Positions 7,378 through 35,379 of a stretch of 37,352 nucleotides of DNA are shown piece after piece. The stretch is taken from IMG/VR virus record IMGVR_UViG_3300042507_002077, positions 1-37,352 of that record; one strand, given 5' to 3'. The position numbers were made by a program, and so were the translations under genes. Origin of the DNA: a virus. Under the pieces are notes generated by a model, which saw only the letters and a list, made by a program, of their open reading frames with translations, did not search any database and was not told the DNA's origin. How positions within the stretch are numbered: position 1 is the stretch's first letter; every line of letters starts with the position of its first letter.

Positions 7378-9234
7378 ATGGCAGCGACCCTTTCCATCAC
7401 CCTGAACACGGGCGGCACGGCGACCTTCGACAATGTGTTCGTGGATGCGTACAATTGCGAACCGCAGTACGCCGGGGACACCACGACCGTATACGCGCAG
7501 AAGATCACCGTGCGCGGCACGGCCATCATCTCGGCGGGCGCGTCGAATTACTCCACCTTCCTTGACGGCCTGAAGAACGGTTCAGGGCGCTGCAACGCGA
7601 TCACCCTCACGGCGGGCGGTCAGACGCTCGTGACCGCCACGGGCGGCGCGACCCCGACCGATACCCGTGGGTGGCCGACCGCGAGCATCGAAGCAACGGA
7701 GATCGTCGGGACGCAAACGGCGCTCCTGCGCTTTGAGGTGACGCACCATCAAGCGTTCAACGCGACCAACACCGTGTCGGCGCACAGGTGGCGGCAGTCG
7801 ATGAGCGTCGATCCGGCGGGCAAGGTGACGCGATCCACGAACGGCGTGCTGCACATCAACCGTGCGACCACGGGCACGGGCACGACCGTTGCGACGAACG
7901 CTTCGTGGTCGGGCAAGGCGGCATACGCAGACCTGTTCCGCAACGCCATCATCCCGGCGGTTCCGGGCGAGGGGTGGCGGCGCGAGTCGCAGGAATTCGC
8001 CGTGGACGAGCAGGGAACGATGCTCACCTACTCCTTCGTGGACAAGCGGCACACGCACGACCTACCGGATGGCGTTCTCGTCGGAAACACGAATTGCACC
8101 TACGAGCGCACGGCGCAGCAAAACGGGTTTGCGATGGTGACATTCACCGCAGACTTGGAGGGAAGCCAAGACCTGAAGAATGTCACGACCACGATTACGG
8201 GCAACCGGAAGTTGGTGTTGGCGGCGGTGCAGTTGGCTAAGACGCGCATCGACCTGTCGTACAAGAAGTCTTGGGTGCAGCGCATCCGGGTTGAGGAGCG
8301 CGACATCATGTCGGGCTACGCAATCCGCTTTGAGTTGGAGGCGATGGTGCAGGCGAAGGCTTCCGATGCCGGGAGCGGCACGAGCATCCTTCCCATCGCC
8401 TACATGGTGGGCAACGAATTCACCGTGACGCGGACGGAGACTCGGGCGGCGAAGGCGTATGGCAACGCCATCAATGTCGGCGCAAATCCCACGCAGTACG
8501 GGATGATGCCGACCTACATCAGCAACCTCGTGGACGGCATGAGTACCACGGGCGGCAGCAGCGCCATGCCCGTGGCGAGTCTGTTCACGATCACGGACGC
8601 GAATGCCTACGGCAGCGTTGTGGTCGCGGTCATCAGCAACGCGAACGGCGTTGCATTGATGAACACCGACCTCGGTGGGCGCTTTGAGACTTCGCAGGAG
8701 CAGCCCACGGCAGACGGTGACGGCTATGCCCGGATGGTGATGAATTCATCGTCGTTCACGGTGAGCCGATACGACTCGGGGTTGGTGAAGATGTCCCCGA
8801 TGTATGTCGATGCCTCGGAACTCGTGTTTCAGACGCGCAAGCCCGTGGTCGAAGTGCGGGAGCGGACGGAGACTGCGCGCATGAACCAAGCGCCGCCGAA
8901 GTCGATGCGCCCGATGCCTGCTGATTCGTATGTGGTCGGTGAGGATTGGCGCGTGTCGTTCGGCAAGTTCGACGCGCAGGGCAACCGCAACATGAGCGGC
9001 GTGTTTGAGCGCGAGTTGGCGATGTACGACGATGGCACTTCGTCGGGCGGCTACACGACCGAAACCATCGGCGGAATTTCGATTCGCAAGTGGAATGCGC
9101 CTAATGCGTATGTCATGCCCACGCTGTCCCCGGTTGCGACCACGGCATCGCAGCAGACTGCCGGGAGCGTGTTTGCAAACCCATCGGACACCAAGCAGGC
9201 GTTCTCCGTGCCCACGCAGAACTTCCTCGCATGA
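7378..9234 (+). CDS. Large distal tail protein (unrecognised family)
   Basis: A 618-aa beta-rich protein directly after the tape measure, where distal tail/baseplate hub genes normally start. The N-terminal half has V-Y-A-Q-K-I-T-V-R-G-T-A and the middle a K-R-H-T-H-D-L-P-D-G stretch, with a possible second beta domain around residues 390-500. No peptidase, lysozyme or carbohydrate-enzyme motif is visible. I cannot assign a family; distal tail (Dit-like) or hub protein is inferred from position. The stop overlaps the next start (ATGA at 9231-9234). Confidence 0.55.
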   Translation: MAATLSITLNTGGTATFDNVFVDAYNCEPQYAGDTTTVYAQKITVRGTAIISAGASNYSTFLDGLKNGSGRCNAITLTAGGQTLVTATGGATPTDTRGWPTASIEATEIVGTQTALLRFEVTHHQAFNATNTVSAHRWRQSMSVDPAGKVTRSTNGVLHINRATTGTGTTVATNASWSGKAAYADLFRNAIIPAVPGEGWRRESQEFAVDEQGTMLTYSFVDKRHTHDLPDGVLVGNTNCTYERTAQQNGFAMVTFTADLEGSQDLKNVTTTITGNRKLVLAAVQLAKTRIDLSYKKSWVQRIRVEERDIMSGYAIRFELEAMVQAKASDAGSGTSILPIAYMVGNEFTVTRTETRAAKAYGNAINVGANPTQYGMMPTYISNLVDGMSTTGGSSAMPVASLFTITDANAYGSVVVAVISNANGVALMNTDLGGRFETSQEQPTADGDGYARMVMNSSSFTVSRYDSGLVKMSPMYVDASELVFQTRKPVVEVRERTETARMNQAPPKSMRPMPADSYVVGEDWRVSFGKFDAQGNRNMSGVFERELAMYDDGTSSGGYTTETIGGISIRKWNAPNAYVMPTLSPVATTASQQTAGSVFANPSDTKQAFSVPTQNFLA

Positions 9235-20413: not shown

Positions 20414-21370
20414 ATGAACGCACCGTGGTTTCCCCTGTACGCACCGGAATTTCTCGCTAGCACTATGTCGATGTCCCCGGAGGTGGTGGGTGCCTACATC
20501 CGCCTGCTTTGCTACGCATGGATGAACGGCGGCATTCCCGATGATCTGCCGACCGTGCAACGAATCTCGGGAGGCCTATCCGAATCCGGGTGGGCCGAAA
20601 TCCGCGCCCGTTTGCAGCCTCACGGTGACCGTAGCGGTGACCGTCACGGTGACCGTGTGCAGATGTTGGTGCATCCGCGCATGGAGCGCGAACGGGTACG
20701 AACCGAGTCGATCAGGGAGGCGCGGCGAGTGGCCGCTAATAACACGAATAGGAAGCGGAGGCACGGTGACCGTGACGGTGACCGTAGCGGTGACCGTAGC
20801 GGTGACCGTGACGGTGACCGTAGCGGTCACCGTCTGTATCCACAGTCACAGAATACAAATACCCCCCACCTGTCGGTGGGGGGTTCTAGGGGGGAGGGGG
20901 TGGGAAATCCATCGGAAGGGAACCGACCCAAGCCCGCCGCTTCGACGGCAGGGCGGCTAGAAGGCGCGGAGGCGCGTCCGAGCCGTCAGGACGGGCCGAC
21001 ACCTACCCCCACCCCTCCGAACGCTCCTGAAGGCATCGTGCCGCGTTCCGCGATTTCGCGGATGCGCTCCCCGACCGCCGACGAGATGGCGCGCATAACT
21101 CGTCGGCCCGGTAACGCACGAGTCACCGACGAGACAATCGCGGCGAAGAAGTCCGTGATTGAGAAGATCCTGACCGCGAAGGGGGTGTCACCCGAACTCC
21201 GTGTCGCGGTTTGGGAGGCGGGCATTCGGGAGTGGTCGCACACCGGAACCGATCCCTATGAGTGGTGCAAGGGAACGGTGCTTGCCGATTGGGTGGGAGT
21301 GAGAAATCCGAACGCAATTATTTCGCATCGGCTCGGAATTGCTCTTGACCCCGTTGGAGCGGGGCGCTAG
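20414..21370 (+). CDS. DUF1376 replication protein carrying iteron-like repeats
   Basis: A 318-aa protein. The N-terminus (residues 1-95) has the DUF1376 pattern P-W-F-P-L-Y-A-P-E-F-L-A-S-T, then G-A-Y-I-R-L-L-C-Y-A-W and I-P-D-D. Two low-complexity blocks of [HSD]-G-D-R repeats (near residues 70-82 and 117-140) are encoded by 12-bp DNA repeats. A disordered Pro/Gly region and a conserved C-terminal helical domain (about 240-318) follow. DUF1376 proteins are often found with phage replication genes and are thought to help start replication. Repeats inside an initiator gene recall lambda O. No helicase, primase or polymerase gene is recognisable nearby, so host enzymes would be recruited. Start chosen at ATG 20414 (GGAG upstream). 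Confidence 0.7.
   Translation: MNAPWFPLYAPEFLASTMSMSPEVVGAYIRLLCYAWMNGGIPDDLPTVQRISGGLSESGWAEIRARLQPHGDRSGDRHGDRVQMLVHPRMERERVRTESIREARRVAANNTNRKRRHGDRDGDRSGDRSGDRDGDRSGHRLYPQSQNTNTPHLSVGGSRGEGVGNPSEGNRPKPAASTAGRLEGAEARPSRQDGPTPTPTPPNAPEGIVPRSAISRMRSPTADEMARITRRPGNARVTDETIAAKKSVIEKILTAKGVSPELRVAVWEAGIREWSHTGTDPYEWCKGTVLADWVGVRNPNAIISHRLGIALDPVGAGR
20623..20656 (+). repeat. Iteron-like repeat block 1 (3 copies)
   Basis: CGGTGACCGT at 20623, 20635 and 20647, exactly 12 bp apart. The core is nearly palindromic. It encodes G-D-R repeats in the DUF1376 protein. Confidence 0.75.
20764..20833 (+). repeat. Iteron-like repeat block 2 (6 copies)
   Basis: CGGTGACCGT at 20764, 20776, 20788, 20800 and 20812. 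At 20824 there is CGGTCACCGT, the reverse complement of ACGGTGACCG, so the last copy is inverted. Period 12 bp. With block 1 this is a candidate replication origin. Confidence 0.75.
20861..20884 (+). repeat. GC-rich hairpin beside the iterons
   Basis: ACCCCCCACC (20861-20870) and GGTGGGGGGT (20875-20884) form a perfect 10-bp stem with TGTC loop, 28 bp after the last iteron. A G-rich stretch follows to about 20904. It may be part of an origin or simply a stable mRNA structure. Confidence 0.55.
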
Positions 21371-21373
21371 GAT
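21345..21373 (+). promoter_or_regulatory. Early promoter with CCCCG-N6-CGGGG operator
   Basis: TTGACC (21345-21350), a 17-nt spacer, TAGGAT (21368-21373). The palindrome CCCCG-TTGGAG-CGGGG lies at 21349-21364 in the spacer. The TAG stop of the DUF1376 gene is the start of the -10. Confidence 0.65.
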
Positions 21374-21385
21374 GGGGCAAGCGAA

Positions 21386-21408
21386 CGGCCCGCGATGGCC
21401 GAAGGAGA
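21386..21408 (+). promoter_or_regulatory. Leader hairpin and ribosome site
   Basis: CGGCC (21386-21390) and GGCCG (21397-21401) with loop CGCGAT, then AAGGAGACA before ATG 21414. Same hairpin-SD layout as four other early genes but with a variant loop lacking GGA. Confidence 0.45.
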
Positions 21409-21413
21409 CACGG

Positions 21414-21713
21414 ATGATTTGGACGAGCGACAAGGAACAAATTGAACGCCTTACCGCCGAGCGCGACGAGGCGCGACAACAGGTAGCACGACTGCTTGAT
21501 GTCGAAACCGGGAACCGAATCGCCATCGCCAACATGACCGCCGAGCGCGATGCGTTGCGCCTTGAATTGTGGGACTTGCAGCGCGGGTTCTGCAATGTGG
21601 CAAGCAGCCTCAACAAAGAGATCACCGGAAGCCCGCGAACCCCCATGCAGATCGCACGCGACAAGGGTTGGAAGTGCTTTGAAGACGAGGCGTACGGCCC
21701 ATTAGAGGACTGA
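21414..21713 (+). CDS. Coiled-coil early protein, unknown
   Basis: A 99-aa protein from ATG 21414 just after the AAGGAGACA site. It is dominated by heptad helices (E-Q-I-E-R-L-T-A-E-R-D-E-A-R-Q-Q-V-A-R-L-L; A-E-R-D-A-L-R-L-E-L) and ends with K-G-W-K-C-F-E-D-E-A-Y. It is the first gene of the operon starting at the 21345 promoter. Small coiled-coil proteins of this kind are common in phage early regions; no function can be given. Confidence 0.65.
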   Translation: MIWTSDKEQIERLTAERDEARQQVARLLDVETGNRIAIANMTAERDALRLELWDLQRGFCNVASSLNKEITGSPRTPMQIARDKGWKCFEDEAYGPLED

Positions 21714-21743
21714 CGAACAAACACGCTGTTCAGGGAGGAACAC

Positions 21744-22031
21744 ATGGCACGCGAAGAACTGATCGCACGGATGCGGACAAGCGCCACGCACATACGAACC
21801 ACGCTTGACGCGCTGCCCTACGGCGCGTGGAGCCGGGAGGAGGATGCAAGCATCGCAGCCTTGCTAGACGAGGCGGCGAACGCGCTGCAACTCGTGGACG
21901 CGGAGATCACCGCCGTCCTGACCCGCAACATGAGGTTGGTGGACGAGTTGGACGATTACGCACGGCAAGTGCGTGCGCTGAAGGCGCGCAACCGCCTGAT
22001 CGCCGACAAGATGCTCAGGGAGAACGCATGA
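21744..22031 (+). CDS. Small helical early protein, unknown
   Basis: A 95-aa, highly helical and charged protein with AGGGAGGAACAC before the ATG. Its C-terminal half has heptads (V-D-E-L-D-D-Y-A-R-Q-V-R-A-L-K-A-R-N-R-L). Its stop overlaps the next start (ATGA, 22028). No family recognised; it belongs to a run of small coiled-coil proteins. Confidence 0.65.
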   Translation: MAREELIARMRTSATHIRTTLDALPYGAWSREEDASIAALLDEAANALQLVDAEITAVLTRNMRLVDELDDYARQVRALKARNRLIADKMLRENA

Positions 22032-22228
22032 TCGACATTGTGAAAGGCTTGCGCCTGTCTGCCGAGATTCAGAAGGCTATGAACATCCCCGGCCCAAGCG
22101 ATGCCGAGGTTGCCGCCGACGAGATCGAACGCCTGCGGAAGCGCATTGCGGAATTGGAGGCGATTCTGTCCCGCGAGGAGCATGAGCGACAGGCACGGCT
22201 CGCCTACTACAAGCAGGCGTTGGAATGA
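22028..22228 (+). CDS. Small phage protein with AADEIERLR helix
   Basis: A 66-aa protein from ATG 22028. The sequence A-A-D-E-I-E-R-L-R-K-R-I-A-E-L-E-A is a pattern found in many small phage proteins of unknown role. It overlaps both neighbours by four bases, so it is part of a translationally coupled set. Confidence 0.65.
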   Translation: MIDIVKGLRLSAEIQKAMNIPGPSDAEVAADEIERLRKRIAELEAILSREEHERQARLAYYKQALE

Positions 22229-22596
22229 GCAGGCAAGGAATCGACACCGAATGGGATTTCGTGGACGCAACCGACGAGGACATCGCGCTGATCGCCGAGC
22301 AGCAGATCGACGCAAGCCCCGGCGAACTCGTGGTCGGGGTGCAGACGCACGCGGCGTTCACCATCCGTCAGGAGGAGGACGAAGACCCGGAGCATCGTTG
22401 GCTCCTGACCGCACGGCTTGTCCTGAAGGACACGCGATGCGACCTGATCCGCGCCGCAGAATTCCGCGCAGATGTCCCATGCACGGGCGCGCTGACCTTG
22501 ATCGAAGCAAAGGCGAAGTGGACGCAAGTGCTGTCCACCTACCTGATGAACGAATGGATACCGCGCTACGCGCAGGAAGGTTGTGATGAGGAATGA
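22225..22596 (+). CDS. Acidic early protein, unknown
   Basis: A 123-aa acidic protein starting in the ATGA overlap at 22225. It has a beta-like middle (L-V-V-G-V-Q-T-H-A-A-F-T-I; W-L-L-T-A-R-L-V-L-K-D) and a helical end. No catalytic or nucleic-acid motif is apparent. Small acidic phage proteins are sometimes host-enzyme inhibitors or DNA mimics, but nothing here proves it. Confidence 0.6.
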   Translation: MSRQGIDTEWDFVDATDEDIALIAEQQIDASPGELVVGVQTHAAFTIRQEEDEDPEHRWLLTARLVLKDTRCDLIRAAEFRADVPCTGALTLIEAKAKWTQVLSTYLMNEWIPRYAQEGCDEE

Positions 22597-22813
22597 CATC
22601 GGCAAACTCGTGGTCACGCTCACGAGCGGCGACGATGGCGAGGTGCTTTCCCTCCTCGCACATACCCCGCAGGGTGCGGTTCCGGTCTACTTTGAGGTTA
22701 TGCAGGCAAAGGGCTGTCGGTGCGGCGGGAGCAACAAGCGCGTCCGCGTCCGATTCGTCGGCCCCAAGTCGGTGAGGGTTGGCCGGATGCCGAAGAAGGA
22801 AATACCGCATTGA
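22586..22813 (+). CDS. Small basic early protein, unknown
   Basis: A 75-aa protein with AGGAAGG five bases before ATG 22586; GTG 22583 is an alternative start. It contains A-K-G-C-R-C-G-G-S-N-K-R-V-R-V-R-F-V-G, a basic stretch with a C-x-C that could bind nucleic acid or metal. It overlaps the end of the preceding gene by 11 bases. Confidence 0.55.
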   Translation: MRNDIGKLVVTLTSGDDGEVLSLLAHTPQGAVPVYFEVMQAKGCRCGGSNKRVRVRFVGPKSVRVGRMPKKEIPH

Positions 22814-22839
22814 CCGAGCGACCGCTACGCTCGTGCGCG

Positions 22840-23046
22840 ATGAGGAAGCCGCAGAACATCCTTCAGCGCGAACGGCGCAGGCACGAGATGGCGATATCCG
22901 CCGTGCTTGAGTCGATTGAGCGCGGCGAATGCGATGCGGAGACAGGCACCGAGGCGTTGTTCACGCTGTCGGATTGGTACGAAGTGACGGGCATGAGCAT
23001 TCAACGGGCGATCCCGAAGTGGATGTGGAACACAAAGGAGAAATGA
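22840..23046 (+). CDS. Small early protein, unknown
   Basis: A 68-aa protein from ATG 22840, 26 bases after the previous stop; TTG 22810 is a less likely earlier start. Mostly helical with a basic N-terminus (I-L-Q-R-E-R-R-R-H-E) and a Trp-rich end (P-K-W-M-W-N). No family recognised. The weak ribosome site lowers certainty. Confidence 0.5.
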   Translation: MRKPQNILQRERRRHEMAISAVLESIERGECDAETGTEALFTLSDWYEVTGMSIQRAIPKWMWNTKEK

Positions 23047-23047
23047 G

Positions 23048-23305
23048 ATGGTCAGAAAGTCTTGGGCACAGAAGATGCAGTCGATGGCAACCCTCCTCCG
23101 TGGCTACGGGTTCGTCGTGAACCCCACGAACACCGGGTTCGTCGGTTGCCACGCGGACGGGCACACGGTGACTTGCAACGAAAAGCGCCTGAAGTGGGAA
23201 AGCGTCGATCCGACCGTCGAAGGTTTCGGCGCGGTCACGCAGGCCCGCATCGTCCCGCCGTGCGCGGAAATGCTCGCCACGAAGTGTCAGGCGACATTCG
23301 GATGA
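23048..23305 (+). CDS. Small early protein, unknown
   Basis: An 85-aa protein starting one base after the preceding stop. It reads as one compact domain with a basic N-terminus (M-V-R-K-S-W-A-Q-K) and four Cys/His positions (G-C-H-A-D-G-H-T-V-T-C; P-P-C-A-E-M). No function can be assigned; metal binding is possible. Confidence 0.55.
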   Translation: MVRKSWAQKMQSMATLLRGYGFVVNPTNTGFVGCHADGHTVTCNEKRLKWESVDPTVEGFGAVTQARIVPPCAEMLATKCQATFG

Positions 23306-23475
23306 CGGACAGCGCCGCACAACTGCGCGACCGCATCCTCGCGCTTGAATCGCAATTGGCGATGATGCGTGCCCACCGGGACGCGCTCCTCATCCAAGCC
23401 GACAAGTTGCGCGACGAGATTGACACGCTGCGCCGTGCGTCGATTGAGAAAGCGATGTACGAGGGCGCGGGATGA
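23302..23475 (+). CDS. Mini coiled-coil protein
   Basis: A 57-aa protein from ATG 23302 in an ATGA overlap. It is a single amphipathic helix pair (L-R-D-R-I-L-A-L-E-S-Q-L-A; L-R-D-E-I-D-T-L-R). It sits between two small genes and before a mini membrane protein. Function unknown. Confidence 0.55.
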   Translation: MTDSAAQLRDRILALESQLAMMRAHRDALLIQADKLRDEIDTLRRASIEKAMYEGAG

Positions 23476-23576
23476 AGCCGTGCGAGATCGCGTCCGCGAT
23501 GGCGTTCCTTGCCGTGGCCCTGTCCGTGTCAAGCATGATCCTTGTCGGCATCGCCGCGTGGAAGAAACATGACTGA
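23472..23576 (+). CDS. Mini membrane protein (34 aa)
   Basis: ATG 23472 overlaps the previous stop and the frame ends at TGA 23574-23576, overlapping the RusA start. The product is one membrane helix (A-F-L-A-V-A-L-S-V-S-S-M-I-L-V-G-I-A-A-W) with a basic K-K-H-D end. Tight overlaps on both sides argue that it is real. It could be an antiholin or early membrane factor. Confidence 0.5.
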   Translation: MKPCEIASAMAFLAVALSVSSMILVGIAAWKKHD

Positions 23577-24033
23577 ACCAACGGTCATATGGGTGGACGG
23601 CGACCCTGCGGCGCAGGGTTCCAAGAAACTCGTGCGGCTCAAGACGGGCCGCACGATCATGTTGGAGAACAGCCGCAAGGTGAAGCCGTGGCGCGCTGCG
23701 GTCGCGGACGCGGCGCGTGAAGCGAACTGCCCGATGCACATGGGCGATGTCGCCGTCTACGCCGTGGTGCGCTTCGTGCGTCCCAAGAGCCACTACAAGG
23801 CAGACGGCACGCTCCGCACGGGCAGGCAGGCGCGTCCCGGCTACGCCGACTGCGACAAGTTGGCGCGGGCGATCTGCGATGGGCTTGCCGGGATCGCGTA
23901 CCCGAATGACCGACAGGTTGCGATCCTTGCCATCGAACGGGTATGGGCAAGCCCCGGCACGGGGTCGGGCGCGATAATTCAGATCGGCCCCGCGCCTGCG
24001 GCGGGGAAGTTTGAATACTGCCACGCAGACTGA
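23569..24033 (+). CDS. RusA-like Holliday junction resolvase
   Basis: A 154-aa protein with the RusA pattern: P-A-A-Q-G-S-K-K near the N-terminus, W-R-A-A-V, V-V-R-F-V-R-P, and the acidic catalytic segment Y-A-D-C-D-K-L-A-R-A-I-C-D-G-L followed by N-D-R-Q-V. RusA cuts four-way DNA junctions; phages use it to resolve recombination or replication intermediates before packaging. With the ERF and nuclease genes nearby it forms a recombination set. The start overlaps the mini membrane gene. Confidence 0.85.
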   Translation: MTEPTVIWVDGDPAAQGSKKLVRLKTGRTIMLENSRKVKPWRAAVADAAREANCPMHMGDVAVYAVVRFVRPKSHYKADGTLRTGRQARPGYADCDKLARAICDGLAGIAYPNDRQVAILAIERVWASPGTGSGAIIQIGPAPAAGKFEYCHAD

Positions 24034-24065
24034 AGCCGGGAGCGCATCGTGCCGATGAAGGGATC

Positions 24066-24461
24066 ATGCTTACCTACCTGCCCATCCTGCTTGCCGTTGC
24101 CGTCGATGCGCCCGCCAACTTCAACGCACGCCCGATCCTTGATGCGATCCGCGAGAAGGAGACAGGCGGCGAAGCCGACCCCGCCAACGCCATCGGTGAC
24201 GGCGGCAGGGCCATCGGCCCGTATCAGATCCACCGCGTGTATTGGCAAGATGCCATTGAGCATGAGCCGAGCATCGGCGGTCGCTACGAGGACTGCCGGG
24301 ACGCGGCGTATGCCGAGCGCGTCATCCTCGCGTATTGGGATCGGTACGCGCCGGATTGGCGGCACGAGACACTTGCGCGGGTTCACAACGGCGGGCCGAA
24401 GGGACACCGCAAGACGGCGACCGTTTCGTATTGGATTGATGTCCGGGCGAACCTCCGCTAG
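24066..24461 (+). CDS. Exported lysozyme-like endolysin
   Basis: A 131-aa protein. The first about 17 residues (M-L-T-Y-L-P-I-L-L-A-V-A-V-D-A-P-A) look like a secretion or signal-anchor sequence. The body has the lysozyme/transglycosylase pattern R-E-K-E32-T-G-G, D-P-x-N-A-I-G-D-G-G-R-A-I-G-P-Y-Q-I and H-N-G-G-P-K-G, with E32 the likely catalytic acid. It would cut peptidoglycan after export through the host Sec system, which fits a phage with only a small holin candidate. It sits far from the lysis-like genes at 15.6-16.5 kb and directly before a terminator. Confidence 0.75.
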   Translation: MLTYLPILLAVAVDAPANFNARPILDAIREKETGGEADPANAIGDGGRAIGPYQIHRVYWQDAIEHEPSIGGRYEDCRDAAYAERVILAYWDRYAPDWRHETLARVHNGGPKGHRKTATVSYWIDVRANLR

Positions 24462-24486
24462 ACTCACGCAACTGATCCCCCGGAAG

Positions 24487-24530
24487 TCCCCCCGGCAGCG
24501 CCTCTAGGCCACCGGGGGGATTTCGTTTTT
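24487..24530 (+). terminator. Intrinsic terminator
   Basis: TCCCCCCGG (24487-24495) pairs with CCGGGGGGA (24512-24520), nine bp, followed by TTTCGTTTTT. It ends the operon that closes with the lysozyme gene. Confidence 0.85.
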
Positions 24531-24560
24531 ACGCACACTCATCACCAAAGGGAGATTGCC

Positions 24561-24977
24561 ATGCGACCGATCTACGAACGCGCAAGCGACCGCACGCGGC
24601 AGGAGGAGATCATGCGTGCGTTCTGCGACCGCTATGGATGCGATGCCGTGGAGATGCCCGCGCTGTGCGCGTGGGACTACGAGATCCGCTACTGCGGGGA
24701 GATCGTCGCCGTGGCCGAGATCAAGACCCGGAGCAAGCCTGCTGCGCTGTACCCGGACTTCATGGTGTCGGAGCGCAAGGTGCTGCGCTTGCGCGAGGAA
24801 GCCGAGCGCCGGGAGATCGCGCCGCTGCTCGTGGTGGATCACCCGGATCTTCGCGGGTGGGTGCGCTTGGATACGGTCGGCTACACGGTGGGGATAGGGG
24901 GCCGCAAGGACAGGAGCGACCCCGCCGACATGGAAACCGTGGCGCGCATCCTGATGGCGGAATTCACCCCGTTCTAG
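24561..24977 (+). CDS. PD-(D/E)xK nuclease-like protein
   Basis: A 138-aa protein with the core D39-Y-E-I-R-Y-C-G-E-I-V-A-V-A-E53-I-K55, where D39, E53 and K55 form the PD-(D/E)xK active site. Further helices carry E-R-K-V-L-R-L-R-E-E-A-E. Similar small phage proteins of the VRR-NUC type cut branched or damaged DNA. A recombination or host-DNA degradation role is likely given RusA and ERF nearby. The gene is preceded by AAAGGGAGA. Confidence 0.7.
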   Translation: MRPIYERASDRTRQEEIMRAFCDRYGCDAVEMPALCAWDYEIRYCGEIVAVAEIKTRSKPAALYPDFMVSERKVLRLREEAERREIAPLLVVDHPDLRGWVRLDTVGYTVGIGGRKDRSDPADMETVARILMAEFTPF

Positions 24978-24995
24978 GAACTTATCCGGCCCTAT

Positions 24996-25018
24996 CAGAT
25001 TTTCAAATAAATCCACCC
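24996..25018 (+). repeat. Upstream element, copy 1
   Basis: A 23-bp AT-rich sequence beginning CAGATTTTCAAATAAATC, identical to 27921-27943. It ends 18 bp before the -35 box of the DUF932 promoter, the same distance as in the other copy. Likely an activator site or UP element. Confidence 0.7.
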
Positions 25019-25036
25019 GGATTCGACCTTTCACCC

Positions 25037-25064
25037 TTGCGCCCCGATGGAACGGGGTTACAGT
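25037..25064 (+). promoter_or_regulatory. Early promoter with CCCCG-N6-CGGGG operator (DUF932)
   Basis: TTGCGC (25037-25042), 16-nt spacer, TACAGT (25059-25064). The palindrome CCCCG-ATGGAA-CGGGG occupies 25042-25057. Confidence 0.75.
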
Positions 25065-25070
25065 ATGTGC

Positions 25071-25117
25071 GTGGGCAATCCGCCCACACCGATCCCGCCG
25101 GATGCGGGAGCAGGAGA
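25071..25117 (+). promoter_or_regulatory. Leader with tandem hairpins and GGA-loop before SD
   Basis: Hairpin 1 GTGGGC-aatcc-GCCCAC (25071-25087). Hairpin 2 TCCCGC-cggat-GCGGGA (25093-25109) with GGA in the loop (25100-25102). Then AGGAGA, GGA 25113-25115, 13 nt after the loop GGA. CsrA-type target layout. Confidence 0.6.
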
Positions 25118-25124
25118 CACGCAA

Positions 25125-26141
25125 ATGGCACACGAGATTCACGACAACGATGGCTTGGCGATGGCGAACACGGGCGCTTGGCACGGACTCGGCAAGGTTG
25201 TGGAAGGAGCCATGAACCCCTTTGCCGCCCTGCGGATGGCCGGATTGGATTGGGAGGTGTTGGAGTCGGACGCGCTCACCGGGATCTTCAACGCGGGCAG
25301 CGGCGACGAGAAGCGCGTCAGCACCGACCGCAGCAAGATGCTTGTGCGCTCGGACGATCACAGCGTGCTTGGCGTGGTCGGCGCGGACTTCACCCCGGTT
25401 CAGAACGCGACCCTTGCCGAACTCGCTTTCGCACTCCGCGCCGCCGGATCTGACAAGGGTGTCGAAGTTGAAACCGCCTTGTCCATCAAGGGCGGGAAGC
25501 GGGTCGGGATGCTCCTCCGCGCCCCGAGCGTGGACATGACGGGCAAGGGCGACGAAGCCCGCCCGTACCTGTTCCTCGCCAACGGGCACGATGGAACCCT
25601 CGCCCTGCGCGTCAAGCCGACGAGCGTTCGCGTGGTGTGCGCCAACACCTTCGGCGCGGCGCTGTCCGACCGGGGAGCGTCTTGGTCGCACCGCCACACG
25701 CAGGGGATCACGGGGCGCGTCGAAGAACTCGCCACCGACATCAAGCGATGGTTCGCCGCGATTGAGGATGGTCAGGAAACCGCCCGCGCACTTGCCTCGC
25801 GGCAGATGAACCGGGACGCGATCCGCGACCTGTGGGCCGATGTTCTCCTGCGCATCGACGGGCCGACCCCGACCACGATCAAGACGAAGTGGGACGAGAA
25901 CCGGGTAGAGAAGGCGACCGCCTTCCTCGCGCACGCCGCGCAAGTGTTCGACTCCGAATCGACCCGGTACGGCGCGAACCTGTGGGTTGCCGCCAACGCC
26001 GCCACGAACGCGATTCAGCACCTTCGCGCCGGGTGGTCGGTGCGGACGAAGGACGCGCAGACGCGGGCCTACGCGGCGTGGGACGGCAGCACCGCCGATG
26101 CCACGCAGGAAGCCTTCCGCGCCGCAATGGCGATGGCTTGA
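25125..26141 (+). CDS. DUF932 family protein
   Basis: A 338-aa protein from ATG 25125. It has the DUF932/phage-plasmid pattern: N-T-G-A-W-H-G-L-G near residue 16, V-G-A-D-F-T-P-V-Q-N, G-G-K-R-V-G-M-L-L, V-R-V-V-C-A-N-T-F and helices to the end. The family is common in phages and plasmids, often near recombination genes; its biochemical function is not established. First gene after a regulated promoter, so probably expressed early and highly. Confidence 0.75.
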   Translation: MAHEIHDNDGLAMANTGAWHGLGKVVEGAMNPFAALRMAGLDWEVLESDALTGIFNAGSGDEKRVSTDRSKMLVRSDDHSVLGVVGADFTPVQNATLAELAFALRAAGSDKGVEVETALSIKGGKRVGMLLRAPSVDMTGKGDEARPYLFLANGHDGTLALRVKPTSVRVVCANTFGAALSDRGASWSHRHTQGITGRVEELATDIKRWFAAIEDGQETARALASRQMNRDAIRDLWADVLLRIDGPTPTTIKTKWDENRVEKATAFLAHAAQVFDSESTRYGANLWVAANAATNAIQHLRAGWSVRTKDAQTRAYAAWDGSTADATQEAFRAAMAMA

Positions 26142-26171
26142 CGAAATGTGGGGGCGATGCGACCGCCCCAC

Positions 26172-26200
26172 TTGCAACCCCGCCGAAGCGGGGGTATGAT
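26172..26200 (+). promoter_or_regulatory. Early promoter with CCCCG-N6-CGGGG operator (ERF)
   Basis: TTGCAA (26172-26177), 17-nt spacer, TATGAT (26195-26200). The palindrome CCCCG-CCGAAG-CGGGG occupies 26178-26193. The -10 is the closest to consensus of this set. Confidence 0.75.
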
Positions 26201-26206
26201 GAACCC

Positions 26207-26250
26207 GGCGCACAACGCGCCAACCGTGCCGCCCGGATGGCAGCAAAGGA
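26207..26250 (+). promoter_or_regulatory. Leader with hairpins and GGA-loop before SD
   Basis: GGCGC-acaac-GCGCC (26207-26221). Then a stem of GCCGCC with GGCAGC (one C-A mismatch) around loop CGGAT (26234-26238). AAAGGAGACACC follows; loop GGA 26235 and SD GGA 26248 are 13 nt apart. Confidence 0.5.
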
Positions 26251-26256
26251 GACACC

Positions 26257-27018
26257 ATGAACCGCAGCGAATCAATCGCAAGCCTCGCCGCAGCATTGGC
26301 GAAGGCAAACTTGGAACTGTCGAACCCCGGCTTCGACAAGAAGAACTCGCACTTCAACAACGGGTACGCATCACTTGCCGCCGTGCTAAACGCGATCCGG
26401 CAACCGCTTGCCAAGCAGGGGCTATCGCTGATCCAAACGATCAGCACCGAGCCGGGGAGCGTCACCATCACCACGAGCCTGATCCACGCATCGGGGGAGT
26501 GGCTTGCGGCGGATGTGTCGGTTGCGGTCGCGCCCAACGCGAACGCGCAGGCGGTCGGCAGCGCCACGACATACATGAGGCGCTACAGCGCGCTGTCGAT
26601 GTGCGGAATCGCCGGGGACGATGACGATGCCGAGGAGGATCGCCGCGACCGCGAGGAGCGCAGGCCGATGGCAGCGCCCACCAAGCGGTCCAATTCCACC
26701 CCCCCTCCTCCGGTCAAGCCCAACGGCAATCAGCCGGGGAACCCGCTTGACAAGTTCCCGGATGACTTTGACGGCGAAGTGACGGTCAAGCGCGTCACGA
26801 AGCGAGATACCGCATGGGCCGTTCAGGTCGAACACGCCGAGTACGGCAGCGCGTGGGTAAAGACGAATGTGGAGGATTACGCCAACGCCCTGTCCGAGGC
26901 CGTGGGGCAGGCGCGAGTCTTGGGGCTGTTCCGAAACGGGCCTGCGCTTGAACTGACGCACATCAAGAACCCCAAGCCCATCATGCAGAAGGAGGAAGCC
27001 GATGCACTCCCCTTCTAA
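26257..27018 (+). CDS. erf: ERF-family single-strand annealing protein
   Basis: A 253-aa protein. Residues 1-130 carry the ERF pattern: A-L-A-K-A-N-L-E-L, N-N-G-Y-A-S-L-A-A-V-L, G-L-S-L-I-Q-T-I, L-I-H-A-S-G-E-W-L, and A-T-T-Y-M-R-R-Y-S-A-L followed by an acidic D-D-D-D. A proline-rich linker and a C-terminal domain follow. ERF proteins pair complementary single strands and promote phage recombination and circularisation. Preceded by AAAGGAGACACC and under its own regulated promoter. Confidence 0.85.
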   Translation: MNRSESIASLAAALAKANLELSNPGFDKKNSHFNNGYASLAAVLNAIRQPLAKQGLSLIQTISTEPGSVTITTSLIHASGEWLAADVSVAVAPNANAQAVGSATTYMRRYSALSMCGIAGDDDDAEEDRRDREERRPMAAPTKRSNSTPPPPVKPNGNQPGNPLDKFPDDFDGEVTVKRVTKRDTAWAVQVEHAEYGSAWVKTNVEDYANALSEAVGQARVLGLFRNGPALELTHIKNPKPIMQKEEADALPF

Positions 27019-27319
27019 CCTGTTCGACCGCGCCGAAGCCGAGCGCCGCAAGGAGTCCGGCATGGCCCGCGCACGCACCGCCCGATCCGGCATCCTCGCC
27101 ATCGCGCAGCGCATCGCCGCGCAAATCTGCGACGAGTACGGCACCGTGACTTCCGACGATGTGGCGATGCGGATGGAGAAGATCGGCTTGACCTACTCCG
27201 GGTTGGGCAACGCAAGCGGAAGCGTGTTCCGCAACGGGTTTGAGTGGACGGGCCAAGTCACCAAGTCGAAGCGCCCATCGACGCATGGCCGGATGATCCG
27301 GGTTTGGAGGAAGGCATGA
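27002..27319 (+). CDS. Small phage protein with HGR-W end (possible winged helix)
   Basis: A 105-aa basic protein overlapping the end of the ERF gene by 17 bases. The pattern A-x-R-I-A-A-Q-I, T-S-D-D-V-A-M-R-M, G-S-V-F-R-N-G-F-E-W-T-G and T-H-G-R-M-I-R-V-W is common in small phage proteins beside recombination genes. A winged-helix DNA-binding fold is suggested by helix spacing, not proven. Confidence 0.6.
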   Translation: MHSPSNLFDRAEAERRKESGMARARTARSGILAIAQRIAAQICDEYGTVTSDDVAMRMEKIGLTYSGLGNASGSVFRNGFEWTGQVTKSKRPSTHGRMIRVWRKA

Positions 27320-27819
27320 GCCTGTACGCAATCACGAGCGAGATGCAAGCGATCCTTGATGCGATGCTTGACGGCGGGGCCGACAGCCCCGAAGCGATGG
27401 AGGCGCTAGATGCCGCGCTCACCGACTTGGACGGCGCGCTTGAGCAGAAAGCGGAGTCCTACGCGGGCCTGATCCGCGAGTTGGAGATGCGTTCGCAGAT
27501 GCGAACGGAGGAGATGAAGCGCATCCGTGCGCTTGCGGACGCGGACGCGACCCTTGCCGAACGCCTGAAGGAACGGTTGCGGGACGCAATGACCTCCACG
27601 GGCAAGACCCGGATCGAAACCGCACGGTTCAAGTTGTCGGTGGTCGGCAACGGTGGGCGGCAACCCCTGTCGATTGCCGACCCGGACGCGCTGCCGGAGG
27701 CGTACACGCGCACGATCAGGGAGCCGGACACGAACGCGATCCGCGCCGCTTTGGATGGTGGCGTACCCGTCCCCGGCTGTACGCTGCTCCCGAGAGGGTC
27801 GCGCCTGTCGATCAAGTAG
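27316..27819 (+). CDS. Siphovirus Gp157-like protein
   Basis: A 167-aa protein overlapping the previous stop (ATGA). N-terminal helices (L-D-A-A-L-T-D-L-D-G-A-L-E-Q-K), a region A-E-R-L-K-E-R-L-R-D-A-M, then T-R-I-E-T-A-R-F-K-L-S-V and P-D-T-N-A-I-R-A-A-L-D-G-G, match the Gp157 family. These proteins occur with phage recombination genes; resistance to phage has been linked to one member, function otherwise unclear. Last gene before a terminator. Confidence 0.75.
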   Translation: MSLYAITSEMQAILDAMLDGGADSPEAMEALDAALTDLDGALEQKAESYAGLIRELEMRSQMRTEEMKRIRALADADATLAERLKERLRDAMTSTGKTRIETARFKLSVVGNGGRQPLSIADPDALPEAYTRTIREPDTNAIRAALDGGVPVPGCTLLPRGSRLSIK

Positions 27820-27863
27820 CACCCCACAATCCATCCTGCATGGCCCGTATGGGCCGTGTCTCC

Positions 27864-27910
27864 CCCCCTAGTTCGGCCCGCAGGACGCGGTAGCCCGCTA
27901 GGGGGTTTTA
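27864..27910 (+). terminator. Intrinsic terminator
   Basis: CCCCCTAG (27864-27871) pairs with CTAGGGGG (27898-27905), followed by TTTTATT. It ends the ERF-Gp157 transcript. Confidence 0.75.
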
Positions 27911-27920
27911 TTGCCCGGTG

Positions 27921-27943
27921 CAGATTTTCAAATAAATCCACCC
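27921..27943 (+). repeat. Upstream element, copy 2
   Basis: Identical over 23 bp to 24996-25018 and again 18 bp before a -35 box. Confidence 0.7.
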
Positions 27944-27961
27944 AAATTGCCTTCTACCCCC

Positions 27962-27989
27962 TTGCACCCCGCCGGATCGGGGTTACAGT
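27962..27989 (+). promoter_or_regulatory. Early promoter with CCCCG-N6-CGGGG operator
   Basis: TTGCAC (27962-27967), 16-nt spacer, TACAGT (27984-27989). The palindrome CCCCG-CCGGAT-CGGGG occupies 27967-27982. Confidence 0.75.
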
Positions 27990-27997
27990 ACGGGTGT

Positions 27998-28044
27998 TGA
28001 GCAAGTCGCTCACGCCGACCCCGCCGGACGCGGGACGCAGGAGA
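27998..28044 (+). promoter_or_regulatory. Leader with tandem hairpins and GGA-loop before SD
   Basis: TGAGC-aagtc-GCTCA (27998-28012), then CCCGC-cggac-GCGGG (28020-28034) with loop GGA 28026-28028 and SD GGA 28040-28042, 14 nt apart. Same design as the DUF932 leader. Confidence 0.6.
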
Positions 28045-28049
28045 CACAG

Positions 28050-28388
28050 ATGACCAAGACCACGACCACGACCACGACCACGATCAACCCTGCTTGCGCT
28101 ACCAAGATTGAGAAGTCTTACGCAGGAGCATCCGGGAAGTGCTGCTGCGGTTGCGCGGGCAAGTACAGCGAGAACCCCCGCACCATCAAGGCGGCAATGA
28201 CCCGAGCGAACAAGATGCTTGCGAATGGAGGCGAACTTTCAATCGGCTCCTGCTACATCGCGGTCGATCTTGATAGCCGCGTCACGATCCTGTATTTCGA
28301 TGAAGCACACTTCACCGCGACGATGCATGACGGCTCGGTCACAATCGAACACCGTTTCGGGAAGTACGGTGTGGACAAGAACAAGTAA
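28050..28388 (+). CDS. Thr-repeat/Cys-cluster protein, unknown
   Basis: A 112-aa protein. Residues 4-11 are eight threonines encoded by four ACCACG repeats, a small microsatellite. A Cys cluster follows (C16; G-K-C31-C-C-G-C-A-G-K), then a basic helix T-I-K-A-A-M-T-R-A-N-K and a beta-rich C-terminal half. The cluster may bind metal. It is first in its operon under a strong regulated promoter, so abundant early expression is likely; the role is unknown. Confidence 0.65.
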   Translation: MTKTTTTTTTTINPACATKIEKSYAGASGKCCCGCAGKYSENPRTIKAAMTRANKMLANGGELSIGSCYIAVDLDSRVTILYFDEAHFTATMHDGSVTIEHRFGKYGVDKNK

Positions 28389-28700: not shown

Positions 28701-28728
28701 TTGCACCCAAGCACATCGGGGCTACAAT
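28701..28728 (+). promoter_or_regulatory. Promoter of HTH regulator (half operator)
   Basis: TTGCAC (28701-28706), 16-nt spacer, TACAAT (28723-28728). Only the right half CGGGG of the early palindrome is present (28717-28721). The predicted start of transcription is the A of ATG 28735. Confidence 0.7.
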
Positions 28729-28734
28729 CCACCC

Positions 28735-28977
28735 ATGCAACTTGCCATCGCCAAGCCGCAGGATGTACGCGGCGCGATCCTGACCGCGCTAGAAGCGCAG
28801 GGTCGCTCCCGGTATGCCTTCGCCAAGACCATCGCGGATCGCGGGATCGTGCAGATGCACACCGTCGATTCCATCCTCGCGCCGCCCGAAGCGGCGACCG
28901 CGACCACGCCCACCCTGTCCACGGCCATCCGCCTGCTGCACGAAGCCGGGTATGACCTGATCGCCGTGCGTAGGTAA
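28735..28977 (+). CDS. Small HTH regulator, candidate early repressor (leaderless mRNA)
   Basis: An 80-aa protein with a helix-turn-helix-like middle: S-R-Y-A-F-A-K-T-I-A-D-R-G, H-T-V-D-S-I-L, then P-T-L-S-T-A-I-R-L-L-H-E-A-G-Y-D-L. This matches small XRE-like phage regulators. The -10 box ends 6 nt before ATG, so the mRNA should begin at the start codon, as with lambda cI from PRM; no Shine-Dalgarno site precedes it. It lies next to early promoters that share a palindrome and has only half of that site itself. A repressor of those promoters with weak autoregulation is the inference. An activator of late genes is the alternative. Confidence 0.65.
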   Translation: MQLAIAKPQDVRGAILTALEAQGRSRYAFAKTIADRGIVQMHTVDSILAPPEAATATTPTLSTAIRLLHEAGYDLIAVRR

Positions 28978-30859: not shown

Positions 30860-30887
30860 TTGCTCATGCAATGTGCATCGGTACGAT
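30860..30887 (+). promoter_or_regulatory. Late promoter with ATGCA palindrome
   Basis: TTGCTC (30860-30865), 16-nt spacer, TACGAT (30882-30887). ATGCA-atg-TGCAT (30866-30878) is a palindrome in the spacer, different from the early operator. It precedes the long head and tail block. Confidence 0.6.
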
Positions 30888-32854: not shown

Positions 32855-33985
32855 ATGGGCGACAGGCGGAAATCGCTTGGCGACCTCGTACGCGCCGTCT
32901 ACGCGGACGGTGCAGCCGCGTACCGTGCCGCCATCGCTGAACAGGTGCGCGGCAAGGGGGGCGTACGGCAATGGGACGCATGGGAGGCGGATACCGCCGC
33001 CCTGCTCCTCATCTCGTGGGCCGCAGGGGCGCACCAAAGCCTCTACACGGCGGGGATCAAGGTGCCCAAGCCCGCCGTGCCTGCCCGGTTCGCCGCCGAC
33101 GATGCGCTGTCGAAGGCGGTCATGCGCTTCGACCCCGGCCCCGCCCGCGAAGCCGTGGAGCGGTTCATCAACCTCCTCCCCATCACCCGCGCCCGGTGGG
33201 ACATCCTCATCGACCGGGCGTTCGACGCCGCAAGCGAACTCCGCAAGGACGAAGCCGCGACAGGGCTAACGAAGTTGCTTGACCGCAGCCCGAAGTTGGC
33301 CGCGCTGATTTACCCCGCGCTGTCGGGGCGACCGCCGCGTTCGGTGCCGGGGCAAGCAGAGAAGGCGCTGCCGGAAGGCGTGAAGCGCGTCCGTACCCCC
33401 GGCGTGCAGGCGGTGGCGCAGGGGGCGTTCTTCGTCACGGGGATGACGGCGGAACAGGCGAAGGCAACCCAAGACCTCTTGGCGAAGGTAATTCGGCAGG
33501 AGGAATCGGTATCGGTCGCCGGGAAGAAACTCAAGACCATCGGCGTAGGAGACTTCATCGAACAGGCCACGCTCGCCACAGGAACCGATTTGACGGCGGC
33601 GCGGCTTGAAACGGTCTACCGGACGAACCTGAACCGCGCAGCCTCGCAGGGGCAATTGGACATCGTGCGGGAGCCGACCGTGCGGAAGTTCGTGCCGCTG
33701 ATGCAATTCAGCGCGACGAAGGACACACGCACGCGGGACACGCATCGGGCGATGGACGGCTATGTGGCGACCGTCGAACAGATCGACTCGCAGGGAATAA
33801 ATACCCCGCTTGGGTTCAATTGCCGATGCGGGTGGAAGCCCGTCCCGGTGGCGAAGGCACAGGCGAACGGGTGGGTAGACGATGAAGGCGTGCCCAACTT
33901 CAAGGCGATTGAGCGGCACAATGGGCGGCGGCAGGGATTGATCGACACGGGCAAGGTGCCCGATCCGGGTTTCGTTTCCGGCTAA
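32855..33985 (+). CDS. MuF-like minor head protein
   Basis: A 376-aa protein four bases after the portal. The C-terminal third has the Mu F signature: E-T-V-Y-R-T-N-L-N-R-A, Q-F-S-A-T-K-D-T-R-T-R-D-T-H-R-A-M-D-G, and F-N-C-R-C-G-W. MuF proteins are bound near the portal and are injected or help exit in some phages. No toxin domain is visible after the MuF motif. Confidence 0.85.
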   Translation: MGDRRKSLGDLVRAVYADGAAAYRAAIAEQVRGKGGVRQWDAWEADTAALLLISWAAGAHQSLYTAGIKVPKPAVPARFAADDALSKAVMRFDPGPAREAVERFINLLPITRARWDILIDRAFDAASELRKDEAATGLTKLLDRSPKLAALIYPALSGRPPRSVPGQAEKALPEGVKRVRTPGVQAVAQGAFFVTGMTAEQAKATQDLLAKVIRQEESVSVAGKKLKTIGVGDFIEQATLATGTDLTAARLETVYRTNLNRAASQGQLDIVREPTVRKFVPLMQFSATKDTRTRDTHRAMDGYVATVEQIDSQGINTPLGFNCRCGWKPVPVAKAQANGWVDDEGVPNFKAIERHNGRRQGLIDTGKVPDPGFVSG

Positions 33986-34014
33986 CACTTGAACGCGCAA
34001 GGAGCGTTACTACG

Positions 34015-35379
34015 ATGCAGGACATGAGCGACCTACGGAAGTCAATTGCGGAGCGTCTTGGCAGCGCGGGCAAGGTGAAGTCTGCGCGCATTGATTCGTC
34101 AATGCTTGACGGTTCCATGCGCGAAGTCCCGATCATCCTGAAGGATGGCAGTCATGCCGTTGCGCGCAAGTCTGCTTCCGGGTGGAAGGTAGACGGACAC
34201 GCGGACATTCCGGCGTTCGCCAAGTTGCGCGATCTTGTGGCGCACATGGACAAGATGGGCTTCTCCCGCCCCGGCGCGAAGGCGAAGTTTGGTTTTGGCG
34301 TGGGCGAAGCCTTTGAGTTTGAGGGCAAGGTGTATGTGGTGAACAGCAACGCTGACACCATTTCCTCCCTGCTCTCCTCGGCCAAGTCCAACAGCGAAAA
34401 GGCGATGATGCTTGCCGCCTATATGCATAAGGGATGGATTTCCTACGAAGGCAAGCGCACCGCTTCCCGCCCCGGCGTGAAGGCGAAGTTTGACCTGTAT
34501 TCAAACCTAAAGGCAAAGCAGGCAAAGTGGATTCGTCAGGCGCAAATTGCGATGCAGAACGACAATGAAGAAGATGAACAGTTTTCTTCTGACATGGCGA
34601 ACGCTTTTGAAGCCGTTAGCGCGGCAATTCGGTCGCAGCCAATGTCGCAAGTAATGCAGTTAGTCAAGACTTTCAGAAGTGAAGCGCAAGCGGAAATTGC
34701 GACTGTGCTGCGTTCTTCTTTCTCCCGCCCCGGCGCGAAGGCAAAGTTTTCCATGCAGTTTGAAGTCGGCAAGACTTACGAACACAGTTTCGCTAATGAC
34801 TCGGATTCCCGCGTTATGTGGAAAGTCATGGCAAGATCGGGTTCGATGCTGACGATCAAGCAAGTCGCATCGGGCTATCGCGTCAAGACCAACGATCCTT
34901 CGGATTACCGACATGGTGTGTCTGCCGTGAATGGTGAAACCAAGCGCGTGAAGATTCACAGCGATGAGCGCGGAGAATATGTGTATCCGATGGGGCGTTA
35001 CAGCATGGCTCCAAGCATCCGCGCTACCGATATTGCACGAGGCTTCTCCCGCCCCGGCGCGAAGGCGAAGATGGGGAAGTGGGAATCGACCCTGACCAAG
35101 AAGGACGGTAAGCCGATGGAGGAATTCACGGCGACCATCCACGGCGAACAGTTCATGATTGAAGTAAAGGAACAGGCAGGGAAGCCCGTTGCCACGCTTT
35201 ACATTTTCTATGAATCTCGCGGGTTCCGCCCAATGGGGCAGGGCACTTTGCAGGCGATGATGAATAAGGCGCAGCGATACGCCGCGCAGGAAGCAAAGGA
35301 TGTGGACGAAATCGGTCGCCGCTTGGGATTTTGGGCCTCCCGCCCCGGCGCGAAGGGGTCTAGCAAGGCGAAGGCGTAA
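34015..35379 (+). CDS. Modular protein with five SRPGAKAK motifs
   Basis: A 454-aa lysine-rich protein after MuF, with AAGGAG upstream. The motif [FA]-S-R-P-G-[AV]-K-A-K-[FM] occurs with its Ser at 84, 151, 237, 345 and, shortened, 442. It splits the chain into units of about 83, 57, 77, 98 and 88 residues that are not related to each other. Unit 3 is a helical coiled coil, unit 4 is beta-rich and ends G-R-Y-S-M-A-P-S-I-R-A, and unit 5 is alpha/beta. This looks like a polyprotein or a set of domains joined by one linker. Since a related S-R-P-G-K lies in the protease-scaffold, cutting by the head protease is possible. Internal core or ejected protein is inferred. Confidence 0.75.
   Translation: MQDMSDLRKSIAERLGSAGKVKSARIDSSMLDGSMREVPIILKDGSHAVARKSASGWKVDGHADIPAFAKLRDLVAHMDKMGFSRPGAKAKFGFGVGEAFEFEGKVYVVNSNADTISSLLSSAKSNSEKAMMLAAYMHKGWISYEGKRTASRPGVKAKFDLYSNLKAKQAKWIRQAQIAMQNDNEEDEQFSSDMANAFEAVSAAIRSQPMSQVMQLVKTFRSEAQAEIATVLRSSFSRPGAKAKFSMQFEVGKTYEHSFANDSDSRVMWKVMARSGSMLTIKQVASGYRVKTNDPSDYRHGVSAVNGETKRVKIHSDERGEYVYPMGRYSMAPSIRATDIARGFSRPGAKAKMGKWESTLTKKDGKPMEEFTATIHGEQFMIEVKEQAGKPVATLYIFYESRGFRPMGQGTLQAMMNKAQRYAAQEAKDVDEIGRRLGFWASRPGAKGSSKAKA
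34261..35350 (+). repeat. Dispersed DNA repeat encoding SRPGAK
   Basis: TCC-CGC-CCC-GGC-GCG-AAG recurs at 34264, 34465 (GTG for GCG), 34723, 35047 and 35338. The copy at 31227 is identical and the one at 30966 begins at CGC. Codons are identical across copies apart from the one GTG, so the repeats are recent, gene-converted or held at DNA level. The protease-scaffold copy (1810) uses other codons (TCG-CGT). Confidence 0.75.

Follow-up and report, generated by a model that had tools for sequence, protein, structure and literature searches.

Lambda Cro and the Cro/C1-type proteins of phage 434 are small phage helix-turn-helix (HTH) proteins that combine palindromic operators at several early promoters with autoregulation, and the locus described here shares these features, autoregulation as an expectation. 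In the Arc/ant system of phage P22, the repressor site lies between the -35 and -10 hexamers, as it does here; unlike the candidate HTH protein and its set of promoters in our case, Arc is a ribbon-helix-helix protein and acts at one promoter. HipB recognizes operators with the consensus TATCC-N8-GGATA, and the hipBA system has in common with our locus the nearest solved fold, the CC-N8-GG spacing of the half-sites, and the presence of several operators per promoter region (PMC3920265). Cluster A mycobacteriophages, in turn, possess stoperators, asymmetric 13-mers mostly located outside promoters, and resemble the present case in the many copies of one repressor site and in a lineage-specific consensus that tracks the repressor (PMC6550527). 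As regards the transcripts, 5'-terminal mRNA-stabilizing stem-loops have been reviewed, and they resemble the leaders described below in that a hairpin is placed at the 5' end of the mRNA or close to it (PMC7509114). In the open-licence literature on phage spacer operators, we found no description of the module presented in this study.

The DNA considered here, hereafter the window, is an IMG/VR record of 37,352 bases from an uncultivated bacterial virus. Searches with its ERF, 28735, and TerL proteins retrieved many related contigs in IMG/VR, including 126 TerL relatives, and a second scan with a wider 28735 alignment added zero new contigs. The window's clade comprises L005 to L014, L018, L042, and L050, with L017 and L036 being more distant. 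No near DNA relative of the window was found among isolated phages, and the scans of 84,980 GTDB genomes (limited coverage) with the 28735 family and TerL as queries gave no relative. Among the matches listed, the identity to named phages is only 24 to 28% for TerL and at most 43% for ERF; these values are too low for a host assignment, which was dropped.

Spacer palindromes in the window

As the first-pass annotation had proposed, four exact copies of the palindrome CCCCG-N6-CGGGG lie between the -35 and -10 hexamers of plus-strand promoters, at 21349 (CCCCGTTGGAGCGGGG), 25042 (CCCCGATGGAACGGGG), 26178 (CCCCGCCGAAGCGGGG), and 27967 (CCCCGCCGGATCGGGG), and the -35 boxes are of the TTG-A/C type with a spacing of 16 to 17 nt. 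P1 (TTGACC-17-TAGGAT, 21345 to 21373, operator at 21349 to 21364) is the putative promoter of the small-gene operon, P2 (TTGCGC-16-TACAGT, 25037 to 25064, operator at 25042 to 25057) that of the DUF932 gene (25125 to 26141), and P3 (TTGCAA-17-TATGAT, 26172 to 26200, operator at 26178 to 26193) that of the genes for ERF (26257 to 27018) and Sipho_Gp157 (27316 to 27819). P4 (TTGCAC-16-TACAGT, 27962 to 27989, operator at 27967 to 27982) precedes the gene of a Thr/Cys-rich small protein (28050 to 28388), the N terminus of which is a poly-threonine stretch (MTKTTTTTTTT) encoded by an ACCACG repeat (28050 to 28090).

The window contains five exact copies of the palindrome against 0.12 expected, a number reached in 0 of 100 shuffles. 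Many copies in coding regions had been indicated beforehand as evidence against a regulatory role, and the genome-wide search turned out favorably, with a single coding copy, devoid of a promoter, at 33313. Furthermore, when promoter-like matches were defined as TTG[AC]NN-N15-18-TANNNT on both strands of the window, the exact site was found inside 4 of the 11 matches, compared to 0 of 441 in 60 shuffles, and any palindrome with 5-bp arms inside 6 of the 11, compared to 23 of the 441. If two mismatches are allowed, CCCCG-N6-CGGGG occurs 67 times against 63.5 expected; it follows that its meaning is confined to the near-exact copies. The central six bases differ among the four sites (TTGGAG, ATGGAA, CCGAAG, and CCGGAT), but the idea that the arms alone are kept does not hold, as all four read xxGRAx. 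In a scan with the sigma-70 consensus, just two of the window's operator-bearing promoters score as sigma-70 promoters, which corresponds to the chance level; thus, their standing as promoters relies on conservation and on the cassette described below, not on hexamer scores.

The set of four misses a fifth promoter, P5 (TTGCAC-CCAAGCACATCGGGGC-TACAAT, 28701 to 28728), which features a 16-bp spacer with the degenerate operator CCCAA-N6-CGGGG (28706 to 28721) and lies directly before gene 28735 (28735 to 28977, plus strand). Since 28735 is the candidate regulator and its own promoter belongs to the group, the regulon is larger than proposed.

Some further elements could be noticed around these promoters. 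An identical 23-nt sequence, CAGATTTTCAAATAAATCCACCC, is present at 24996 to 25018 and at 27921 to 27943, upstream of P2 and P4; it may be an upstream promoter element rich in A+T, or else the trace of a cassette duplication. Terminator-like hairpins occur immediately upstream of P4 (27858 to 27912) and P5 (28662 to 28695) and would seem to insulate each cassette from the preceding gene. Downstream, two promoter-like sites conserved in near relatives (30860 to 30887 and 33989 to 34016) contain the spacer palindromes ATGCA-N3-TGCAT and AACGC-N7-GCGTT, and in the L009 clade TGCAT-N5-ATGCA is found at the corresponding place after terL; the 30860 and 33989 palindromes possibly represent another class of operators, one serving late genes.

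Conservation of the operator across related phages

Throughout the window's clade, promoters with CCCC..GGGG in the spacer precede early genes and the 28735 homologue. The counterparts of P1 in L009, L010, L011, and L014 keep the arms, in a set picked for intact arms; an earlier conservation count on corresponding promoters, partly circular because it used such sets, was replaced by one on promoters aligned by their -35 and -10 hexamers. In the 21 related promoters aligned in this way, CCC and GGG are invariant and the inner G/C pair is looser; hence, the conservation that had been attributed to the whole arms applies to CCC...GGG(G). The distance between the first base of the -35 hexamer and that of the operator is 4, 5, or 6 bases, and this sliding indicates that the operator is more than a portion of the hexamers.

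Across relatives, the general form CCNN-N8-NNGG is found in the spacer of most early promoters. In particular, L024 presents CCATC-N6-GATGG at four promoters, and, with unchanged geometry, the half-sites outside the clade become CCTGC-N6-GCAGG in L074, CCTTG-N6-CAAGG in L073, CCTA-N8-TAGG in L108, and CCTG-N8-CAGG in L113. The occurrence of the same geometry at corresponding promoters of many related phages gives good support to the proposal of a shared operator heading the early units.

It might be argued that the spacer letters are promoter elements read by the host RNA polymerase, or by a phage-modified one, and that the palindrome is a by-product. In fact, phages with differing inner letters still share CC behind the -35 and GG ahead of the -10, and these letters are also found in L019 to L022, where no 28735 homologue was detected in the parts of the genomes covered, an observation that counts against a repressor as well. 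Moreover, beyond the window's clade, many of the operators are semi-palindromic only, with a common asymmetric centre ..GCCGA.., which is unusual for a simple dimer site and likewise speaks against a repressor. However, the position of the operator relative to the -35 varies between 4 and 6 bases, and the promoter-like sites at 30860 and 33989 do without CCCC..GGGG. In addition, the inner trinucleotides are complementary 170 times, compared to 123.5 when re-paired (0 of 2,000 permutations), a test that is only indicative because it counts overlapping registers and related phages. On the whole, we consider it unlikely that the spacer letters are promoter elements.

Other repeated palindromes were noticed in promoter spacers of more distant phages, namely, ACAC-Y-GTAC-R-GTGT at the L033 promoters at 1998, 4227, and 4685, and CAACT-N6-AGTTG and CAAGT-N6-ACTTG at the minus-strand promoters of L019 and L022 (8398 and 8394). 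Given these cases, operators placed in the spacer may be widespread among phages. L103, a relative without the cassette, presents GGTGCAACCATTGCAC-type repeats at about 7919 to 8010.

A leader hairpin and a portable cassette

At most related promoters, a hairpin with a conserved, mostly ANGYC loop and a covarying stem is located 6 to 9 nt past the -10. Of the 63 perfect hairpins with the loop A[AG]GTC, 36 are located no more than 70 nt away from such a promoter, in most cases at a distance of exactly 8 nt past the -10, and the hairpin is present in 56 of 92 distinct downstream stretches, a set that takes in leaderless and chance promoters, compared to 9.7 when shuffled. In the alignment of 45 cassettes, double-sided changes that keep the pairing were counted in 38 cells against 11.2 in shuffled data, and 83.7% of the cells are paired against at most 48% in slid alignments. 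Since the fold energies of single leaders (z from -2.6 to +1.0) are not decisive, it is this covariation that supports the hairpin. No match to Rfam was obtained in the window at E values up to 1, the leader hairpin included, and the covarying, mostly ANGYC-loop hairpin, which recurs in the 5' leaders of early transcripts of many related phages, may represent a small RNA element of a new kind.

R1, a covariance model built on the promoter together with the hairpin, recognized P4 (27962, E value of 4e-16), P2 (25037, 8e-11), P3 (26172, 4e-9), and P5 (28701, 6e-4, with the hairpin portion matched poorly) above noise, P1 (21345) only weakly (7.8 bits), and nothing else in the window. Across relatives, it gave 81 matches from 69 sources; training sequences are counted among these sources, and some of the records overlap.

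The P2 leader hairpin GTGGGC-AATCC-GCCCAC (25071 to 25087), indicated by covariation, folding, and R1, would be 5'-terminal with respect to the presumed transcription start and is followed by a second hairpin, CCCGC-CGGAT-GCGGG (25094 to 25108, from sequence and folding), by AGGAGACA, and by the start codon. The P3 leader contains GGCGC-ACAAC-GCGCC (26207 to 26221), identified by the loop/hairpin search and by folding. In the P4 leader, TGAGC-AAGTC-GCTCA (27998 to 28012), 8 nt past the -10, is supported by covariation, although it does not form in the minimum-energy fold of that leader alone; a second hairpin, CCCGC-CGGAC-GCGGG, lies at 28020 to 28034 (sequence and folding). No ANGYC hairpin was found downstream of P1, and P5 has no leader hairpin.

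The resulting order is -35, operator, -10, hairpin with an ANGYC-type loop at the presumed 5' end of the mRNA, often a second hairpin, and then AGGAGACA as the ribosome site ahead of the start codon. On the basis of sequence, three of the promoters P1 to P4 and most promoters in the relatives can be regarded as one portable cassette. The same cassette type heads different genes in different relatives, with MNIGFANAANRE behind two cassette versions in L011 and L014 and DUF932 directly behind it in L013; it follows that promoter units and genes reassort. L007 shows a different gene behind the cassette that heads the Thr/Cys gene in the window.

The candidate repressor and its proposed mode of action

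Gene 28735 encodes a protein of 80 amino acids, for which searches at E values up to 1 gave 0 Pfam families and 0 PHROGs, and sequence comparison with the PDB gave chance-level matches only. The AF2 model (13 sequences, pLDDT of 87) presents four helices in a compact domain with the lambda-repressor arrangement, and the nearest PDB structures are operator-bound HipB, ComR, and C.Esp1396I, all of which have Cro/C1-type folds. The structural scores are middling (TM of 0.66, Z of about 7 [7.3], best E value of 0.07, and identity of about 12 to 18% to HipB), and 28735 is thus predicted to be a Cro/HipB-like HTH protein.

The start codon of 28735 lies 7 nt past the -10 of P5, so that its mRNA is probably leaderless, like the lambda cI mRNA transcribed from PRM. 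In L009 to L014, L017, and L050, an operator-bearing promoter ends 7 nt ahead of the start of the homologue, and in L036, such a promoter lies a short distance upstream; in several distant relatives, there is no operator promoter before the HTH gene, which counts against a repressor. A gene of the 28735 family precedes terS/terL in 53 of 72 further loci, which include a few overlapping records of contigs already counted.

The putative recognition helix varies together with the half-sites, T-V-D, the type present in the window, being associated with CCCC and T-[AG]-E with CCT or CCA, with L066 mixed; this pairing mostly follows descent. In the TerL tree, L114 (T-V-D, CCCC), a long branch, falls inside the T-[AG]-E/CCT clade with 98% support, and L036 falls within the T-V-R group, the other members of which show no cassette. 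Within the HTH family, a search of the V-R branch revealed no cassette, which is again an argument against a repressor. L114 and L036 are suggestive of one to two joint changes of helix and half-site, without proving them, and the replacement of an early region could account for such changes as well.

The sites might instead be bound by a host repressor, such as a stress or cell-state regulator, through which the phage would read the state of its host. The binder proposed here is a candidate only, and the GTDB scans gave no host; on the other hand, the half-sites vary by phage lineage and track the phage HTH type, and the site is present at the candidate's own gene, which makes a host protein quite unlikely. 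Activation from the spacer by 28735 or another phage protein, in the MerR fashion, would agree with hexamers that are weak by consensus but is very improbable, because spacer-binding activators of this type correct spacers of 19 to 20 bp, those of 16 to 17 bp found here need no correction, and the operator overlaps the polymerase footprint.

The predicted HTH fold, the operator-bearing promoter of its own gene, and the co-change with the half-site favor 28735 as the operator binder. We infer that the palindromes probably serve as operators for an autoregulated Cro/HipB-like HTH repressor that is encoded by the phage itself, with 28735 as the most likely candidate, and that occludes RNA polymerase. 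At each early promoter, a 28735 dimer would bind the CCNN-N8-NNGG half-sites of the spacer and thereby keep RNA polymerase out. The early genes would be on at entry and would be turned off as the repressor builds up, ahead of the adjoining terminase and late genes; the position of 28735 between the early and terminase genes fits such an early-to-late switch. With the degraded operator of P5 and a leaderless message, the repressor gene would be the last to be turned off, in a negative feedback.

The leader hairpin would most likely serve in the protection of the mRNA 5' end or in protein binding, and its conserved loop favors a bound protein over the guarding of the end. More tentatively, it is possible to hypothesize a portable cassette with two layers, where the HTH operator is combined with an ANGYC loop recognized by an RNA-binding or antitermination factor of phage or host origin; early genes would be shuffled behind ready-made cassettes, and the DNA layer would be respecified in each lineage.

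Comparison with known systems

For a large group of uncultivated phages, the analysis provides a concrete map of regulation and names a testable repressor candidate among unannotated proteins. The natural operator series CCCC, CCAT, CCTG, CCTA, and CCTT, paired with recognition-helix variants, may be useful for a specificity code of small HTH proteins, and, in phages without a known host, early genes can be spotted by the combination of leader hairpin and operator.

Different from lambda Cro and 434, the locus presents at least five tandem promoters, all on one strand, each with a single operator in its spacer; furthermore, we saw no divergent cI/cro switch, and no integrase was found among the proteins scanned. 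Compared to hipBA, no HipA-type partner was seen beside 28735, and the genes concerned are phage early genes, not a toxin-antitoxin operon. Different from the 5'-stabilizing stem-loops, the leader hairpin has a conserved ANGYC loop, is associated with one promoter type, and has no Rfam match, and, compared to the cluster A stoperators, the sites of the window are palindromes inside spacers. Thus, spacer operators and Cro-like repressors are already known, whereas the modular cassette, the lineage-wise respecification of the half-sites, and a leader hairpin outside Rfam set the present module apart.
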